From Burkholderiaceae bacterium (lineage in GTDB: Bacteria; Pseudomonadota; Gammaproteobacteria; Burkholderiales; Burkholderiaceae_F): 55,603 nt of DNA. Position 1 is the stretch's first letter. Every line of letters begins with the position of its first letter. The stretch covers positions 1 to 55,603 of the forward strand of contig JAGCMT010000098.1 of assembly GCA_017646335.1 (NCBI GenBank), in the 5' to 3' direction. Under the pieces are notes generated by a model, which was given only the letters and a program-made list of their open reading frames with translations, searched no databases and had not been told where the DNA came from. The translations under genes and the position numbers were made by a program. Shown here piece by piece: positions 17,521 through 24,216 of the stretch.

Positions 17521-18000
17521 ATGGCTTCGGTGAATAAAGTCATCATTATCGGCAATTTGGGCCGAGATCCCGACACTCGTTACACAGCAGAAGGCGGTAC
17601 CGCCATCACGACGATTACGGTTGCAACGTCTCGTCGTTACAAGGACTCTAACGGTCAACCCCAAGAAGAAACGGAATGGCACCGTGTCGTGTTCTTCGGT
17701 CGTCAAGCCGAAATCGCGTCGGAATACCTCCGCAAGGGTCGTCCGGTCTATGTTGAAGGTCGCTTGCGCACCCGTAAGTGGCAAGGCGCCGACGGTCAAG
17801 ATCGTTACTCCACGGAAATCATTGCCGAAACGATGCAAATGTTGGGCACGCGCGAACGTAGCGAAGGCGCTCCGAGCGGTGGTTTCGAATCCGCCCCTCG
17901 TCGTCCTGCCCCGAGCAACAACTACCAACAACGAAATCCCGAACCGATGCCCGCTCCGGTTGATGGCATCGACAACTTGGACGAAGACATTCCGTTCTAA
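17521..18000 (+). CDS. ssb: Single-stranded DNA-binding protein
   Basis: Coats single-stranded DNA in replication, repair and recombination. The 159-aa protein has the OB-fold core (residues 1-110: [51 protein letters not shown]) followed by a Pro/Asn/Gln-rich linker and the acidic tip LDEDIPF, which recruits partner proteins. The frame is open from a GTG at 17479, but ATG at 17521 after a GAGAGAAG site gives the canonical N-terminus. Divergent from uvrA, a common pairing in proteobacteria. Ends in a strong terminator. Confidence 0.97.
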
Positions 18001-18020
18001 TCCAAGCCTCTGATTTCTAG

Positions 18021-18051
18021 CGACCCGTCGGCTTTCGGCGGGTCGTTTTTT
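18021..18051 (+). terminator. Terminator of ssb
   Basis: Stem CGACCCGTCG/CGGCGGGTCG (18021-18030 with 18036-18045, one G-U pair) is followed by six T's. Confidence 0.92.
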
Positions 18052-18104
18052 CTTGGTAACTCTATTGCAAGAGGCAAATCAAATTTGTTAGACTCATCGG
18101 TTAG

Positions 18105-18110
18105 TATATT
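18105..18110 (+). promoter_or_regulatory. Possible -10 element of the pyrimidine leader transcript
   Basis: TATATT sits 28 bp upstream of the leader GTG, which would give a 5' end near 18117 and a short untranslated stretch with a purine-rich ribosome site. The matching -35 is weak, so this is tentative. Confidence 0.35.
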
Positions 18111-18137
18111 GACAGTCTTTCACAAAAGAGAACGCCT

Positions 18138-18215
18138 GTGTACCAATTTTTTCTCTCTGCTAAACCTCAACATCGCCAAGCGGCTTTGCGCATGGTAGGG
18201 AGAAGTGTTTTCTAA
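18138..18215 (+). CDS. Putative 25-aa leader peptide of a pyrimidine-type attenuator
   Basis: A short frame starts at GTG 18138 with AAAAGAG about 7 nt upstream and ends at TAA 18213-18215, exactly where the attenuator stem begins. The peptide starts with Met-Tyr-Gln-Phe-Phe-Leu-Ser. Codons 3-7 lie over a pyrimidine tract with six T's (18147-18158), about 57 nt before the hairpin. This is the layout of UTP-sensing leaders of enteric pyrBI and pyrE: RNA polymerase pauses at the U-rich tract when UTP is low, and the coupled ribosome then prevents the terminator. The gene is too short for ORF callers. Function is inferred from layout and from the downstream pyrE-like gene. Confidence 0.6.
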   Translation: MYQFFLSAKPQHRQAALRMVGRSVF

Positions 18216-18247
18216 ACGGCAATCCTGCTAGGGTTGCCGTTTTTTTA
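18215..18247 (+). terminator. Attenuator hairpin upstream of amidohydrolase-pyrE
   Basis: A 12-bp stem (18215-18226 with 18230-18241, one G-U pair, core ACGGCAA/TTGCCGT) with a 3-nt loop and a T tract (18240-18246) lies 38 bp upstream of the amidohydrolase start. Being promoter-proximal and right after the leader stop codon, it looks like a regulated terminator. Confidence 0.85.
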
Positions 18248-18284
18248 CGATTTTGTTTCATTATTTTTTTGCGAGAAGAGAACA

Positions 18285-19286
18285 ATGAAAGTAGTACCGA
18301 ATACCGTCCGCGCCATGCTTGAGCCGATGATCAAAGCCAATGGCGGCTGGTGTAATACTCACGCTCACGCTGACCGCTCCTACACGTTGAGCCCGGAAGT
18401 GATGGATTTGCGTCGCAACTGCACGCTCCAACAAAAGTGGGACGCCCTTGACCGACTCAAGCGCGAATCGACGGTTGAAGATTTCTATGCTCGCTTGTCG
18501 ACGATGTTCGAATCCATGATCGACCAAGGTGTTACGTCTATGTGCACGTGGTTGGACGTCGACCCGCAAAGCCAAGACCGCGCCATCATCGCTGCCATGA
18601 AGGCTCGTGACCACTATAAGGATCAATTGACGATCAAGTTCGCCAACCAAACGTTGAAGGGCGTGATCGATCCGGAAGCTCGCAAGTGGTTTGACATCGG
18701 TGCCCAATTTGTGGACATCATCGGTGCTTTGCCCAAGCGTGACGAGCGCGACCACGGCAAGGCTGCAGAAGCTTGGGACATCATCATGGGCACGGCCAAG
18801 GAACAAGGCAAGATGGTCCATGCTCACGTTGACCAATTCAACCAAGCCAGCGAATACGAAACCGAACAAATGTGCTTGAAGACGATCGAATTCGGTATGC
18901 AAGGTCGCGTGGTCGGTGTTCACGGCATCTCCATCGGTGCTCACTCCAAGAAGTATCGTCAACGCCTCTATCAATTGATGCGCGAAGCTCAAGTGATGAT
19001 GATCGCTTGCCCGACGGCTTGGATTGATACGGCCCGTACGGAACTCGTCGGCCCGTTGCACAACTCCCTTACCCCGGTTGACGAATTGGTTCCGGCCGGC
19101 GTTCGCGTTGCTATCGGTACGGACAACGTGGCCGACGCAATGGTTCCGTGGAACGACGGTAACATGTGGCACGAATTGACCTTGATGGCTACGGGTTGCC
19201 GCTACGACCAATTCGAAGAACTTGTGGAAATTGCTACGAAGAGCGGCCGTATGGCTTTGGGCTTGGAACCGTACGTTGCGCTTTAA
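18285..19286 (+). CDS. Cytosine deaminase-like metal-dependent amidohydrolase
   Basis: Member of the amidohydrolase superfamily nearest CodA-type cytosine deaminases, but of unsure substrate. Metal ligands are visible as NTHAHAD (His26, His28), VHAHVDQ (His181), VHGISIGAHS (His213/His220) and GTDN (Asp280). In E. coli CodA the segment after the third ligand reads HCDE and its Glu217 is the proton shuttle; here it reads HVDQ, so the Glu position is Gln184. That casts doubt on simple cytosine deamination and leaves a ring-opening hydrolase possible. ATG 18285 follows GAAGAG; the longer frame (18234) would start inside the attenuator. It is 15 bp upstream of the pyrE-like gene and behind a pyr-type attenuator, so a role in pyrimidine supply is likely. 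Codon bias suggests strong expression. Confidence 0.8.
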   Translation: MKVVPNTVRAMLEPMIKANGGWCNTHAHADRSYTLSPEVMDLRRNCTLQQKWDALDRLKRESTVEDFYARLSTMFESMIDQGVTSMCTWLDVDPQSQDRAIIAAMKARDHYKDQLTIKFANQTLKGVIDPEARKWFDIGAQFVDIIGALPKRDERDHGKAAEAWDIIMGTAKEQGKMVHAHVDQFNQASEYETEQMCLKTIEFGMQGRVVGVHGISIGAHSKKYRQRLYQLMREAQVMMIACPTAWIDTARTELVGPLHNSLTPVDELVPAGVRVAIGTDNVADAMVPWNDGNMWHELTLMATGCRYDQFEELVEIATKSGRMALGLEPYVAL

Positions 19287-19301
19287 TAGGAGAATAAGAA
19301 A

Positions 19302-19973
19302 ATGCCCTCTATGCTTGCTGAAAACATTTTGACGGAAAATTTACTCTCCTTGAACGCCGTCTCTTTCTTGACCGAAGAACCGTTGCGTTTGCGCTCCGGT
19401 TTGGTTACGCCGATTTACATCGACAACCGTATGCTCATCGCTCATCCCGATGCATGGCATGACGTGATCGAAACCATGGCTTCCTTGATTGAAAAGTGGG
19501 GCTTGGAATATGACATCATCGCCGGTGTGGAAGCCGGTGGCTTGACGCACTCTGCCGCGTTGGCCTATCGCCTTTTCCGTCCGACGATTTATGTGCGTCA
19601 AAATGCAAAGACCTACGGCAACCTCCATCGTATCGAAGGCGGTAGCGTTAAGGGTAAGCGCGTTTTGATTATTGAAGACCACATCTCCACGGGCTTGTCT
19701 TGCTTGGATGCTATCAAGACGTTGCGCGAACAAGGCGCCATCGTGACGGACTGCGTCAGCATCACGAACTTCGACATGGCCGAAACGGCAACCCTCTTCG
19801 AAGAAGCCGGTGTGAAGATGCACCGCATGATCGCCTTCAACAAGGTTGTTGACAAGGCAATCGAAATGGGTCACATCACGGAAGAACAAAAGAAGACCAT
19901 TCAAGAATGGTTGAAGACGCCGTGGACGTGGGCAGCTCGCCAAGGGTTGGTCGCTGCTACGCGTGAAAACTAA
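19302..19973 (+). CDS. pyrE: Orotate phosphoribosyltransferase-like protein
   Basis: Type I phosphoribosyltransferase expected to make OMP from orotate and PRPP. The 223-aa protein has RLRSGLVTPIYIDNR (substrate loop, about residues 27-41), the IIAGVEAGGLTHS segment, VRQNAKTYGN (catalytic loop with its Lys) and the PRPP site VLIIEDHISTGLS (about 123-135). PRPP motifs are normally Asp/Glu-Asp rich with Thr-Gly; here it reads EDHISTG, so it fits. TAGGAG lies 9 nt upstream of ATG. It forms an operon with the amidohydrolase. It could instead act on another pyrimidine base, but the attenuator favours a biosynthetic or salvage role. Confidence 0.85.
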   Translation: MPSMLAENILTENLLSLNAVSFLTEEPLRLRSGLVTPIYIDNRMLIAHPDAWHDVIETMASLIEKWGLEYDIIAGVEAGGLTHSAALAYRLFRPTIYVRQNAKTYGNLHRIEGGSVKGKRVLIIEDHISTGLSCLDAIKTLREQGAIVTDCVSITNFDMAETATLFEEAGVKMHRMIAFNKVVDKAIEMGHITEEQKKTIQEWLKTPWTWAARQGLVAATREN

Positions 19974-19980
19974 TCGTGAA

Positions 19981-20046
19981 TAAGCCATCGTTTCGATGGC
20001 TTACCACACCAACGAAAAGCCCCGTTCGCTGAACGGGGCTTTCGTT
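19981..20046. terminator. Double hairpin between pyrE and tctA
   Basis: Two perfect dyads: TAAGCCATCG/CGATGGCTTA (19981-20003) directly after the pyrE stop, and AAAGCCCCGTTC/GAACGGGGCTTT (20016-20042). The second lies between the convergent genes and probably terminates both. T tails are short. Confidence 0.75.
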
Positions 20047-20061
20047 TAGGGCTTATAGCGA

Positions 20062-22047
20062 TCAGATAAGCCAGCCCATCGGCAATTGCAAACTCAAGAA
20101 CATGCCAAAAATGCCATAGATCATGCCGAGCGTGACGATCGGCAAAATCACCATCGCCCAACTCATTCGACAGCCTCGCAAGTACCAAACCGTTGCCATC
20201 AAGAAGAGCAATGCACTGGAGTAGAAGCCCAAATACGGGATAATCAAAACCCACAAGAAGAGCAACACAAAAACGAAGCATTCTCGACGATAACGAGTAA
20301 AGAACGGGATGACATATTCATCACGACGCTTTTGACGATATTGCATCCAACTCAAAATCAACGAACCGAGAGCAAAGAAACCTAAGCCGACAATCATGAT
20401 TTGAGGAATCAAACGACTACCGATCGGATCCCAACGGCTAGAACCCGGCAACTCCAACGAACCCAAGTAGAAACCGACTGCAACAAAGACCAAAACTGCC
20501 GAAAACTTAATACTCAGCGTGATCGTTTCTTTGGATTCTTGTTGAGCTTCGATTGCATTTTGCTTCTTACTCTTTTGATATTGCCAACCGCAGTAAACAA
20601 TCGACAAGACCGTCAAAGCCATGAAGAACGCAGAGATCGGGCGGGTGAAGAATAACGTCCAGTCACTATCGATGGAGAATGCTTGACGCAAGTTTTCTTC
20701 ACACATACCGCCCAAGAGCAAGCCGATAACGATCGGAGCCAAGGGATAACCGGCGCGATCCATCACAAAACCCACAACACCAAGCGCCACAAACAACCAA
20801 ATATCGAACGTTTGGTTATTCAATGCAAAGCAACCGATTGCGCACATCAACAACACGATCGGAATCATGCCCCATTGCGGGCATTGAGTCAGACGCAAGA
20901 ACACGCGACTACCGGCCCCCAATTGAATGGCAATCATGAAGAAGTGAGCCACGAAATAGACGACAAAGAGGCCATAAACCAGCATGGCACTGTCTTTAAA
21001 GAGCGCCGGGCCCGGCGGAATGGAGTGCACCATTAACACGCCTAGCAACACGGCATCGGACGCCGTCCCTGGAATGCCCAAAGCCAAAGTCGGGATCAAA
21101 CCGCCACCGGCGCAAGCATTGTTACCCGACTCGGAAGCAACCACCCCATCAGGGCAGCCTTTGCCGAATTGTTCCGGAGTCTTGGAATAACGCTTTGCTT
21201 GGTCATAGGCTAAGAAGTTAGCCACGGAACCGCCTTCACCCGGCAAGGCACCCACAAAAGACCCGAACAAGCTCGAGCGAATCAAATTCCACCAATTGCT
21301 ACGAAGACCCTTGAAAACTTTGCGATAAGGAATTCGAACTTCGTTTTCATGGAATTCAGTCTTTGTGGCTTGCACCTTCGGCGTTTGCATCCCGGCCAAA
21401 AGACTCGGCAAAGCAAACAAACCCACCAAAACCGGCAAAAGACTAAAACCGGACAAAAGCTCCGGCATATCAAACGTGAATCGAACCAAACCGCCCGTAT
21501 TATCGGTGCCGACCATCGACATCACCAAGCCCAAAAAGCCACTGGCCATGCCTTTAAAGAATGACTTGCCGCCCAAAGAGGCAATCAACGTCAACGAAAA
21601 GAAGATAAGGCCGAAAAGCTCCCACGGCCCGAACTTCAAACCGAATTCGGACACCGGCTTAATAAAGAGGACCATAATGATCCCGCCGATGATCCCGCCA
21701 AAGAATGAAGCGAAAATACCCAAACCCAGCGCTTCACCGGCTCGACCGGACTTGGCCATCGGATACCCGTCAAACACGGTACAAATCGAACTGGGCGTCC
21801 CCGGAATCCCCAACAAAATGCCGGAAATCTGACCACCGGAGAAACCGCCGACATACACGCCAATCAACGTTGAAAGGCCTTCCAACGGACTCATCGCAAA
21901 CGTAAAGGGGAAAACCAATACGATGGCCATCAAGATAGTGAAACCAGGGATGGCCGCTGCAACGATACCGACAAGCGTCCCGATGAATGCCAAGAACATG
22001 ACATTCCAACTAAATGCCTGCGAGCATAATTCAGCAAGAAATTCCAC
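20062..22047 (-). CDS. tctA: Tripartite tricarboxylate transporter, TctA-TctB fusion permease
   Basis: Inner-membrane part of a TTT-type importer for citrate-like carboxylates. Residues 1 to about 500 are TctA: GTLVGIVAAAIPGFT, GGFSGGQISGILLGIPGTPSS, DGYPMAKSGRAGEALG and the second-half repeat GALPGEGGSVANFLAYDQAK with ALGIPGTASDAVLLG. From about residue 510 a further 150 residues with four hydrophobic segments (starting near IKFSAVLVFVAVGFYLG) resemble the small TctB subunit, normally a separate protein of about 150 aa. So this looks like a natural A-B fusion. The start is GTG, 7 nt after AAGGA. TctC lies upstream on the same strand, with a hairpin between. Substrate not readable. Confidence 0.9.
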   Translation of the reverse strand: MEFLAELCSQAFSWNVMFLAFIGTLVGIVAAAIPGFTILMAIVLVFPFTFAMSPLEGLSTLIGVYVGGFSGGQISGILLGIPGTPSSICTVFDGYPMAKSGRAGEALGLGIFASFFGGIIGGIIMVLFIKPVSEFGLKFGPWELFGLIFFSLTLIASLGGKSFFKGMASGFLGLVMSMVGTDNTGGLVRFTFDMPELLSGFSLLPVLVGLFALPSLLAGMQTPKVQATKTEFHENEVRIPYRKVFKGLRSNWWNLIRSSLFGSFVGALPGEGGSVANFLAYDQAKRYSKTPEQFGKGCPDGVVASESGNNACAGGGLIPTLALGIPGTASDAVLLGVLMVHSIPPGPALFKDSAMLVYGLFVVYFVAHFFMIAIQLGAGSRVFLRLTQCPQWGMIPIVLLMCAIGCFALNNQTFDIWLFVALGVVGFVMDRAGYPLAPIVIGLLLGGMCEENLRQAFSIDSDWTLFFTRPISAFFMALTVLSIVYCGWQYQKSKKQNAIEAQQESKETITLSIKFSAVLVFVAVGFYLGSLELPGSSRWDPIGSRLIPQIMIVGLGFFALGSLILSWMQYRQKRRDEYVIPFFTRYRRECFVFVLLFLWVLIIPYLGFYSSALLFLMATVWYLRGCRMSWAMVILPIVTLGMIYGIFGMFLSLQLPMGWLI

Positions 22048-22075
22048 GACCCATTCCTTTCTAGTAGAGACAAAG

Positions 22076-22108
22076 AAAAGGGGCTGAGGTAACTCAGACC
22101 CCCTTTTT
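22076..22108 (-). terminator. Intercistronic hairpin between tctC and tctA
   Basis: On the minus strand the stem AAAAGGGG..CTGAG / CTCAG..CCCCTTTT (with a 2-nt bulge, TTAC loop) ends in a T-rich tail. It lies after the binding-protein gene and likely lowers expression of the large permease. Confidence 0.75.
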
Positions 22109-22121
22109 CTTCACTTAAAAA

Positions 22122-23084
22122 TTACTTTTGTTGTGCAAATGCTGCCTTATAGATCTCATTGAGCTTGCCGAAGTGTTCCTTCGTTTGTTCCGGATTCAAA
22201 TAAAGCATTTGGTTGCCCAAATCTTCAATCTTCTTAACCACGGCAGGATCCTTACAGGCAGCTTCATAAGCCTTGGCGATCTTATCGATCACGTGCTTAG
22301 GCGTTCCCTTCGGCGCAAACACTGCACGCGTCACAGCCAAGTTCACGTCATAGCCCAATTCTTTTTGCGTCGGAACATTGGCGATTTGATCAAGGCGAGT
22401 CGGGTTAGAAACGGCCAAGAATTGCATACGACCGTCCTTAACATATTCGATATTGGACGGAACGTCACCGGAAACCATATCAATGTGCTTACCCAAAATA
22501 GCCTTCACTTGCGGGCCGGAACCATTGATGATCACAACACGGAAATCTTTATTGAAATCCAAACCGGCCGTACGAGCGATTTCAGACCAAAGGACGTACT
22601 GCACCGAAGCGGGCGTCATACCGATGACTACCTTACCCGGATTCTTCTTGGCATAGTCAATCATCTCTTGGTAGCCCTTAAACGGCGTATGGGTACCGGC
22701 CGTGATCGTAAACGGCGTGGCAGCCAAAGTACAAACCGGCTCAAAAGCTTCCAAACCGAAATTGACCATACCGCCATAATAGGTCGTCATCATGAATTCA
22801 TGACCACCCAAAAGGGTATAACCGTCAGCCTTTTGTCCCTTCACAAACGTAGAGCCCTTCGAACCACCGGCACCGCCCATATTCATCGGAACGATCGACT
22901 TGCCAAGCTTGGCTTCTGCAGCTTCTGAAATCACACGAAACACAACGTCCGTTGCACCACCGGGAGCAAACGGAATAATCAACTTCACTTCACGAGACGG
23001 AAATTGATCGGCTGCAAAACTCGGAGAAATCGAACCCAACGCAAGAGCCAAACTACATGCGGCTAAAAACTGACGCTTTTTCAT
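22122..23084 (-). CDS. tctC: TctC/BugE-type periplasmic carboxylate-binding protein
   Basis: Periplasmic receptor for a tripartite tricarboxylate transporter. The 320-aa precursor has a signal peptide (MKKRQFLAACSLALALGSIS, cleavage near SFA-A at about residue 24), then FPSREVKLIIPFAPGGATDVVFRV, the family start motif, and GGAGGSKGSTFV in the ligand loop. ATG at 23084 is chosen over an earlier in-frame start because GGAGG lies 4-5 nt upstream. It is followed by a hairpin and then the fused TctAB permease, so the three functions form one locus. Bug-family ligands include citrate, glutamate and aromatic acids. Confidence 0.93.
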   Translation of the reverse strand: MKKRQFLAACSLALALGSISPSFAADQFPSREVKLIIPFAPGGATDVVFRVISEAAEAKLGKSIVPMNMGGAGGSKGSTFVKGQKADGYTLLGGHEFMMTTYYGGMVNFGLEAFEPVCTLAATPFTITAGTHTPFKGYQEMIDYAKKNPGKVVIGMTPASVQYVLWSEIARTAGLDFNKDFRVVIINGSGPQVKAILGKHIDMVSGDVPSNIEYVKDGRMQFLAVSNPTRLDQIANVPTQKELGYDVNLAVTRAVFAPKGTPKHVIDKIAKAYEAACKDPAVVKKIEDLGNQMLYLNPEQTKEHFGKLNEIYKAAFAQQK

Positions 23085-23133
23085 AAAACCTCCAGACAAT
23101 CCCAAATAGTCTGAGAGTTATTTTGCCTTATCA

Positions 23134-23162
23134 ATCATCGAACTATGGTCATTTTCGGTCAA
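23134..23162 (-). promoter_or_regulatory. Probable sigma-70 promoter of tctC
   Basis: On the minus strand TTGACC (-35, 23157-23162) and GATGAT (-10, 23134-23139) are separated by exactly 17 bp, 50 bp upstream of the tctC start. The -10 is weak. Confidence 0.45.
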
Positions 23163-23224
23163 AATTTTGCCATTCTCTAAACACTAGTGCTTACAGGTTT
23201 TATCTAAGACAATCTCCACGGATA

Positions 23225-23263
23225 TAAAAAAAACGATGCCAAAGAGAATCTTTAGCATCGTTT
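23225..23263 (-). terminator. Terminator of the efflux operon
   Basis: A 15-bp stem (23249-23263 with 23231-23245) is fully paired only as minus-strand RNA, where the single mismatch becomes G-U, and is followed by eight U's. It lies 20 bp after the binding-protein gene, the last of the efflux operon. Confidence 0.92.
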
Positions 23264-23283
23264 CGAGAGAAAACCAACAAAAA

Positions 23284-24216
23284 TCAACGGAAGAGTAACG
23301 ACTCAACATCCACAGATTGTTTCATCATTTTTTCCTTCAAGAGGAACGCTTGATTAACGTTCATTGCATCGATATCAGCTTGCGTGATTGTGGAATAGAA
23401 ATTGGCCCATGATGCCAATTCGCGAGCTTGTTCCACAGAAATTCCGTGCTCCTTAGCACCAATAGACAGAGCCGCATCAAAATTTCCTTCAATCCACGCG
23501 AGCGCTTCACGATTAACCTTGACGACTCGTCGAACCACTTCCGGATAAGCCTTGGCAAAACGCTCACTCACAGCCATGACCAAATTCGTATCCACATAAC
23601 CGCCGGCGCGAGTCAAAACCCGATGCCCAACGGAGGCAGCCTTTTGAATGCCCGGACCGACAAGAAGGGCCGCATCGGCATGCCACGTCAACAACGCGGT
23701 CAAACTCGCCGGCAAATTCATGGAAATCAGTTCGATATCGCTGGCCGACATCCCCTCTTTTGCCAAAGCCGCCACCAACAAATGATGTAAAACCGTCCCC
23801 TTGGGGCCTACCACGCGCTTGCCCTTTAAGTCTTTTACCGACTCGATCTTGCTATTTTTCGCCGTCACAATGGCAAAAATATCATTGGGATGAGCAACTC
23901 CATCCGCAATCAAAATACGGTTACCGGCACCGTTGGCAATCAGCAACGTGCTTGTATTCATTGCCGCAACCATATCCAAATCACCCGCCATCAACCCGCG
24001 GACCTGATTCAGGCCGGCTTTAATCGGAACCCAATTGACCTTGATGCCTTCCTTGGAAAATTCCTTTTCCAATAGCCCCTGTGTTTTCATCACGATGTTC
24101 TGCAGATTGAAGGGGGCTTTGACATACGTAATGTTGAGTGTTTGAGGCATGGGAGCCGCCCATGCCCAAACACTAACAACCAAGCTGAGAAGAAATACCA
24201 AACAACGATTCATCAT
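23284..24216 (-). CDS. SsuA/TauA-like periplasmic binding protein encoded in an efflux operon
   Basis: Solute-binding protein of the nitrate/sulfonate/taurine class (NMT1/THI5-like). The 310-aa precursor starts with a signal peptide (MMNRCLVFLLSLVVSVWAWA, cleavage near AWA-A), then LNITYVKAPFNLQNIVMKTQ, a GDLDMVAAMNTSTLLIANG lobe segment and SVKDLKGKRVVGPKGTVLHHLL, the usual hinge motif. Its ATG overlaps the MacB-type permease stop as ATGA, so translation is coupled. No importer permease or importer ATPase of the Ssu/Tau class is nearby; the only ABC partners are the MacB-like efflux subunits. It may therefore capture a substrate in the periplasm for export. This role is inference. Confidence 0.85.
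   Translation of the reverse strand: MMNRCLVFLLSLVVSVWAWAAPMPQTLNITYVKAPFNLQNIVMKTQGLLEKEFSKEGIKVNWVPIKAGLNQVRGLMAGDLDMVAAMNTSTLLIANGAGNRILIADGVAHPNDIFAIVTAKNSKIESVKDLKGKRVVGPKGTVLHHLLVAALAKEGMSASDIELISMNLPASLTALLTWHADAALLVGPGIQKAASVGHRVLTRAGGYVDTNLVMAVSERFAKAYPEVVRRVVKVNREALAWIEGNFDAALSIGAKEHGISVEQARELASWANFYSTITQADIDAMNVNQAFLLKEKMMKQSVDVESLLFR

Follow-up and report, generated by a model that had tools for sequence, protein, structure and literature searches.

A candidate pyrBI-like, probably UTP-sensing attenuator ahead of an amidohydrolase–phosphoribosyltransferase operon in Burkholderiaceae

Attenuation of the pyrBI type is the textbook control of de novo pyrimidine genes in enteric bacteria. 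The 55,603-nucleotide (nt) contig JAGCMT010000098.1 of a Burkholderiaceae bacterium (assembly GCA_017646335.1), the whole of which is hereafter called the window, carries a short leader frame whose stop codon meets the stem base of an intrinsic terminator, directly in front of a two-gene operon encoding an amidohydrolase and a protein resembling orotate phosphoribosyltransferase (OPRT). We read this arrangement, with somewhat better than even confidence, as a ribosome-coupled attenuator that works like that of pyrBI, probably senses uridine triphosphate (UTP) and acts on an operon of the salvage type. The leader frame, its conservation, the U tract, the terminator and the operon can be read in the sequences themselves, as can the fact that no terminator of this kind precedes the upp or the canonical pyrE genes. 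The leader region was both read directly and scanned, and its features, together with the genes behind it, are the following (Shine–Dalgarno is abbreviated as SD and base pairs as bp).

18105..18110, + strand: putative -10-like element TATATT, 5/6 of the consensus, 27 nt 5' of the GTG
18126..18133, + strand: SD-like site AAGAGAAC of the leader frame, from the sequence
18138..18215, + strand: leader frame with GTG start, 25 codons and TAA; its counterpart is open to the terminator in 19/19 leader loci, including the window
18147..18152, + strand: T6 inside an early pyrimidine tract, from the sequence; a possible first pause
18150..18162, + strand: 5' arm of a 13-bp leader helix, a possible pause hairpin (0/300 shuffles)
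18193..18205, + strand: 3' arm of the leader helix, pairing with 18150-18162
18208..18211, + strand: T4 (U tract) nearly abutting the terminator, the proposed UTP-sensitive pause; relatives also have T-rich leader ends
18214..18246, + strand: intrinsic terminator (the attenuator), with stem 18214-18225/18231-18242 and T run 18240-18246
18276..18283, + strand: SD-like site AAGAGAAC of the amidohydrolase gene, from the sequence
18285..19286, + strand: amidohydrolase of the PRK06886 family, cytosine-deaminase-like (NF005365, 467 bits, cut-off 340; 4r7w, E 5e-17)
19302..19973, + strand: OPRT-like phosphoribosyltransferase, a paralogue of PyrE (TIGR00336, 93.6 bits, cut-off 106.8)

The leader region of the window

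The sequence-only reading of this DNA had described a GTG frame of 25 codons with a ribosome site, running over a pyrimidine tract with six T's and stopping where a 12-bp terminator with a T tract begins, 38 nt before the amidohydrolase, and direct reading and scans bear out this description. The frame encodes the peptide VYQFFLSAKPQHRQAALRMVGRSVF, and its stop codon TAA (18213-18215) overlaps the first two bases of the terminator stem, which comprises 12 bp (AAACGGCAATCC/GGGTTGCCGTTT) and amounts to -18.0 kcal/mol. The end of the T run and the amidohydrolase ATG at 18285 are 38 nt apart, and the ribosome-site octamer before this ATG is identical to that before the leader frame. Judging from the sequence, the transcript likely starts near 18117. 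A simple promoter scan of the window did not list TATATT at 18105-18110, and a simple terminator scan of the window did not list 18214-18246, while two later scans did list this terminator.

As a check on chance, a single rule was applied to both strands of the window and found 14 strong terminators, among which 18214-18246 alone combines a leader-like start, the absence of a frame of at least 100 codons 60 nt before it on the same strand, and a short distance to the next gene start. The terminator at 1430-1399 (minus strand) shares the first two of these three features, but the next frame lies 423 nt away. Moreover, a separate terminator at 18019-18047 serves the upstream gene ssb, so that the attenuator terminator is not needed for ending ssb.

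Leader frames, terminators and U runs among relatives

Up to 400 nt upstream of the operon were read in 40 loci, the window included (only 262 nt in L014), and 19 of them, from five genera, show a leader frame with a terminator behind it: nine in the genus of the window (g1), five in g2, three in g6 and one each in g13 and g15. The other 21 loci belong to the genera g10 (12) and g16 (9). The start of each leader and the arms of its terminator were assigned manually, on inspection of the sequences. Frame 0 is open up to the terminator in 19/19 leader loci, compared with 2/19 for frame 1 and 12/19 for frame 2, and the shuffle chances of an open frame, with the starts thus marked, multiply to 10^-5.7 over 13 representatives. 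A strict rule, by which a terminator must lie within 200 nt before the gene start, finds one before the operon in 18 of the 19 leader loci, and the fold of the nineteenth (L018) contains a bulged terminator. The same rule finds none before 14 upp genes and none before 15 canonical pyrE genes, for which the stretch read ended 10 nt before the family match.

In the genus of the window, the leaders extend over 25 to 29 codons up to the terminator and follow, by eye, a loose pattern with an early F, R-x-R and, in most of them, a late G-x-[SN]-V-F. Their stop codon falls on the stem base in the window, L008 and L011 and 15-17 nt into the terminator in the other six, whereas it lies 13 nt into the terminator in g15 and beyond it in g2 and g6, and no stop is met within the sequence read in g13. 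The genera also differ in how the leader begins. A script found the leader ATG 7 nt (8 in L024) after a -10-like element in 9/9 loci of g2, g6 and g13; it did not list L018 of g15, where TAAGCT is seen by eye 7 nt before the ATG. Because of this spacing of 7-8 nt, the leaders of these four genera look leaderless, whereas those of g1 are preceded by 5' sequence that carries an SD-like site.

The U content before the terminator is the other recurrent feature. Over the 14 nt that directly precede the terminator, T accounts for 117 of 266 bases in the 19 leaders, against 69 expected from the leaders, and a run of at least three U's lies within 35 nt before the terminator in 17/19 leaders (at least four U's in 13/19). 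The six T's to which the sequence-only reading had drawn attention are present in the window; in relatives it is a U run beside the terminator that recurs, and not specifically the early T6. The same reading had named the loss of the frame beside a retained hairpin as the pattern that would speak against a coupled leader. This pattern was looked for and not found in the 19 loci, where the frame remains open throughout and the U runs (17/19) and terminators (18/19) accompany it.

A hairpin before the U tract is suggested as a further element. The 13-bp helix of the window (18150-18162/18193-18205) is reached by none of 300 shuffles, and that of its closest relative, L008, by 2/300. These two leaders show five differences in the frame, all in the helix loop, of which four alter the peptide (codon effects judged by eye). 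Other leaders have helices of 6-9 bp, reached by 6/300 shuffles in L016 and by 15 to 213/300 in the rest. The hairpin is therefore put forward as a suggestion, and the broader idea of a pause hairpin conserved throughout, for which shuffles give weak results except in the window pair and L016, was set aside as a claim and retained as a possibility. As for folding in general, leader segments fold better than their shuffles (z <= -1.5) in 14/19 loci; the leader segment of the window alone has z = -0.83 and E. coli pyrL has -0.70, while the fold of 18105-18290, terminator included, reaches z = -3.1.

The genus g10 has no leader of the window's kind. In 12/12 of its loci (L021, L022, L037-L045 and L067), A[A/G]TTT follows a TA...T element at a distance of 6 nt, where the transcript would be expected to start, a pattern that shuffles produce 0.1 times on average and in at most 2/12 loci, and that matches only 1/28 of the other loci, so that it is not a feature of the genus of the window. 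Directly after A[A/G]TTT, most of the 12 have a GC-rich hairpin, mostly followed by U (by eye), and the strict rule finds a terminator in 2/12. This start could be of the UTP-stuttering type known from pyrBI, which provides an independent, sequence-level hint of UTP control for the same operon.

The operon and its metabolic setting

The amidohydrolase occurs at E <= 1e-60 in 40 of 67 genomes of the bacterial family, here termed carriers, and is missing at this threshold from the 27 non-carriers. In 40/40 loci the OPRT-like gene lies directly 3' of it. The sequence-only reading had called the downstream gene a pyrE-like OPRT; the likeness to OPRT stands, and the gene proves to be a divergent paralogue rather than canonical pyrE, judged by its scores. 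In 17/17 carriers tested, the operon-linked OPRT scores 89-103 bits with TIGR00336, below the cut-off of 106.8, and a canonical pyrE (168-199 bits) is found elsewhere in 15/17, including the genome of the window (198.8 bits). Therefore, the strict label of a pyrE operon is wrong, and this candidate identity was rejected.

The NCBIfam entry PRK06886 is titled 'hypothetical protein', and the amidohydrolase distantly resembles cytosine deaminase (4r7w). Its 40 homologues all have an invariant Gln (HVDQFN) aligned with a Glu of 4r7w (HCDEID), which we take to be the catalytic residue. Because of this replacement, the identity of a plain cytosine deaminase, considered as a candidate, is not claimed. 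Both proteins of the operon are, thus, relatives of pyrimidine enzymes and divergent from them.

The carriers differ from the non-carriers in their genes for pyrimidine synthesis. pyrB exceeds its cut-off in 0/40 carriers and in 19/27 non-carriers, and pyrC, of either type, in 0/17 carriers tested, whereas both types exceed it in the single non-carrier tested (G011). The salvage gene upp is over its cut-off in 14 of the 17 carriers tested, the exceptions being the genome of the window (G000), G005 and G022, and no upp is over the cut-off in G011. Several genomes are incomplete, that of the window being 83% complete, which weakens the picture of pyrB and pyrC absence; moreover, carriers and holders of pyrB share no genus and, thus, the pattern may reflect a single event of descent. 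Allowing for this, the carriers look like pyrimidine auxotrophs living by salvage, and, with pyrB above its cut-off in none of them and pyrC in none of the 17 tested, the operon probably serves salvage rather than de novo synthesis. The interpretation given by the sequence-only reading is, on the whole, supported in part.

Proposed mechanism and alternatives

In the proposed mechanism, RNA polymerase would start near 18117, produce the leader frame and the hairpin and slow down in the U-rich tract before the terminator. At low UTP, the polymerase would wait at the U tract, which would allow the ribosome translating the leader to catch up to the stop codon at the stem base. A ribosome at this stop would cover the 5' arm of the terminator, so that the terminator could not fold and the amidohydrolase–OPRT operon would be transcribed. 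At high UTP, the polymerase would run ahead, the terminator would fold and transcription would stop. Ribosome coupling at the leader is held with considerable confidence, and UTP as the signal is, overall, thought somewhat probable. Passages of two papers describe for pyrBI a polymerase pause at low UTP and a coupled ribosome that blocks the terminator (PMC10135430, PMC5021804), and a passage of a third reports that, with a stop codon 5 nt before a terminator, termination in E. coli fell from about 90% to less than 10% (PMC4824070). The anatomy of the window, compared by analogy, fits both the published pyrBI logic and the suppression of terminators by stop codons.

The sequence-only reading had spoken of a pyrBI/pyrE-style attenuator. 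As in E. coli pyrL, the frame reaches the terminator, a U-rich tract is followed by a terminator inside the leader frame, antiterminator pairing in the window is about equally weak by energy and the operon is presumably related to pyrimidines. Nevertheless, the U tract lies 23 nt before the stem in pyrL and 2 nt before it in the window, the operon is a different one, leaders of the window's genus stop on the terminator or inside it, and four other genera show an apparent leaderless start. The architecture stands; the leaders do not match the PyrL family: PF08052, the PyrBI leader family, matches none of the nine leaders compared with it out of the 19, while PyrL scores 117 bits in the same run. 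E. coli rph-pyrE also works by attenuation. Its sequence and annotation likewise place a terminator just before an OPRT gene and behind a frame; there the frame is rph, whereas here it is a leader of 25 codons and the OPRT is a paralogue located behind the amidohydrolase. The g10 start, in turn, recalls pyrBI, where AATTTG lies 7 nt after TATAAT, and differs from the window's genus, of which it is no feature. UTP-dependent reiterative transcription (stuttering) is described at pyrBI, codBA, upp and carAB in part of one account (PMC6245113). Finally, a leader frame starting at the 5' end of the transcript, as apparently in g2, g6, g13 and g15, is described in a passage on Sinorhizobium meliloti trpL (PMC7298713), which is an amino-acid attenuator, and the window itself is not leaderless.

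The pairing of the terminator 5' arm with upstream RNA was computed, as energy and as probability, for the state before the 3' arm is made. This replaced an equilibrium terminator test with the leader occluded, which was dropped as uninformative because the trpL and hisL controls gave the same flat result. The 5'-arm pairing gains 2.0-5.5 kcal/mol in 18/19 leaders (-5.5 in the window), and the controls give -5.3 (pyrL), -8.1 (hisL) and -9.3 kcal/mol (trpL). Pairing probability, which separates the controls less well than energy does, is 0.62 in the window, 0.49 in pyrL, 0.71 in trpL and 0.81 in hisL. These values favour, only modestly, a logic like that of pyrBI over one like that of trp or his.

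A number of observations weigh against a common, pyrBI-like UTP control of this operon. In g16, the strict rule finds a terminator in 0/9 loci, and at least six of the nine operons (L020, L023, L047, L049, L065 and L066) sit close behind another frame, presumably the end of an ApbE-type gene; control in this genus must therefore differ, and seems to have moved. In L010, a stronger competing pairing (-7.4 kcal/mol) is possible, and the pairing probability of 0.79 in L011 and L024 is nearer to hisL and trpL than to pyrL, while L017 and L069 have no run of three U's in the last 35 nt. Only three leaders, those of the window, of its near twin L008 and of L016, have a helix that clearly exceeds the shuffles. 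In the four leaders that could be aligned (L012, L013, L015 and L016; 17 predicted pairs), both sides change in 1/17 pairs, which is C-G in L013, U-A in L015 and L016 and broken in L012; five other pairs show one-sided changes, nine are invariant and two have a broken cell only, with three broken cells in all. Covariation, tried as a line of argument, is thus too scarce for a claim. Before the canonical pyrE of one g10 locus (L089), a 6-bp hairpin with T5 is seen by eye, which failed the strict rule, and the canonical pyrE of this genus might have its own attenuator. As for the metabolic setting, 10/40 carriers hold proteins resembling aspartate transcarbamylase at 181-192 bits, under the cut-off of 237, located in L075, L076 and eight g10 genomes; the best matches of the two that were checked are aspartate transcarbamylase models, whose cut-offs they do not reach. 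The link of the operon enzymes to pyrimidines is, moreover, itself deduced from likeness.

Other readings of the same region have to be weighed. A ribosome-coupled attenuator could respond to another signal, such as the supply of amino acids, through Phe or Arg codons, or the general rate of translation. In many leaders, Phe codons (UUU/UUC) do directly precede the terminator and basic residues are numerous, and L011 and L024 by probability and L010 by energy come near the amino-acid attenuator controls. This option is nevertheless thought unlikely: by eye, no run of a single codon is common to all genera, four of the five differences that separate the window from L008 affect the peptide, the competing pairing is weak in energy except in L010, and between close relatives (L026/L070 and L010/L011) a change in the length of the U run shifts the frame at the terminator, as if the peptide were unimportant.

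The frame might, on the other hand, be incidental to an RNA that binds a ligand or protein and whose sensor would be either the 13-bp helix or a three-way junction that is predicted for the genus. The constant helix arms beside a varying loop in the window and L008 agree with such a sensor, as do the consensus junction predicted for L012, L013, L015 and L016 and its one pair changed on both sides. The folds, however, differ between genera while the frame, and the U run in 17/19, are kept; a search of 17900-20200 with Rfam gave seven matches up to E 5, none at the gathering score; and the three of the genome's seven phosphoribosyltransferase matches whose stretches were scanned resemble purine phosphoribosyltransferases and not PyrR, so that little probability is given to an RNA sensor. 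The best Rfam match over the leader, the Burkholderia small RNA BcKCsr2 (18.7 bits, cut-off 40), and the length of about 130 nt between the putative start and the terminator end recall a separate small RNA that would have a promoter and a terminator to itself and lie before the operon by coincidence. This is considered very improbable, as the arrangement accompanies the operon through five genera, and does so independently of the upstream neighbour, since ssb lies upstream in only 8/40 loci, all in the genus of the window.

If a ribosome-coupled, UTP-sensing attenuator does act here, coupled transcription–translation sensing of UTP would arise or persist beyond enteric bacteria and could be rebuilt from different parts, in this case on a salvage-type operon of betaproteobacteria without pyrB and pyrC above cut-off and with leaders unlike PyrL. 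More tentatively, and with odds that we place below even, a family without de novo pyrimidine synthesis would have put one salvage operon under UTP sensing at the level of the polymerase and exchanged at least three 5' designs, namely an SD-led leader (g1), a leaderless leader (four genera) and, in one genus, a start of the stuttering type at A[A/G]UUU, accompanied by a hairpin near the 5' end of the transcript. If ribosomes load onto a leaderless leader, they would then be coupled to the polymerase from the very first base. The reading also gives a starting point for finding the function of a gene pair that is conserved in gut bacteria and known only as amidohydrolase and OPRT-like protein. 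In the open-access literature, with most subscription journals outside the scope, no report for this lineage was found, nor anything joining Sutterellaceae with leader peptide, or Sutterella with orotate phosphoribosyltransferase and pyrimidine. The new elements would be the operon, the lineage, leader peptides that are not PyrL and the ways of starting the leader, whereas the principle would be that of pyrBI, and leaderless leaders as such are already known from S. meliloti trpL.

Two minor observations concern a more distant genome and the surroundings of the operon. In L036 (Gastranaerophilales, another phylum), an amidohydrolase 52% identical is found, with no OPRT match in the stretch read, and ahead of it L036:2730-2926 holds a U-rich tract and a 32-codon frame that has an SD-like site and runs into a terminator-like hairpin; this layout, a single AT-rich example, is a lead only. 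In the window, convergent genes at 20062-24216 (minus strand) resemble, by eye, those of a tripartite tricarboxylate transporter, with a membrane protein of 661 amino acids and two solute receptors.

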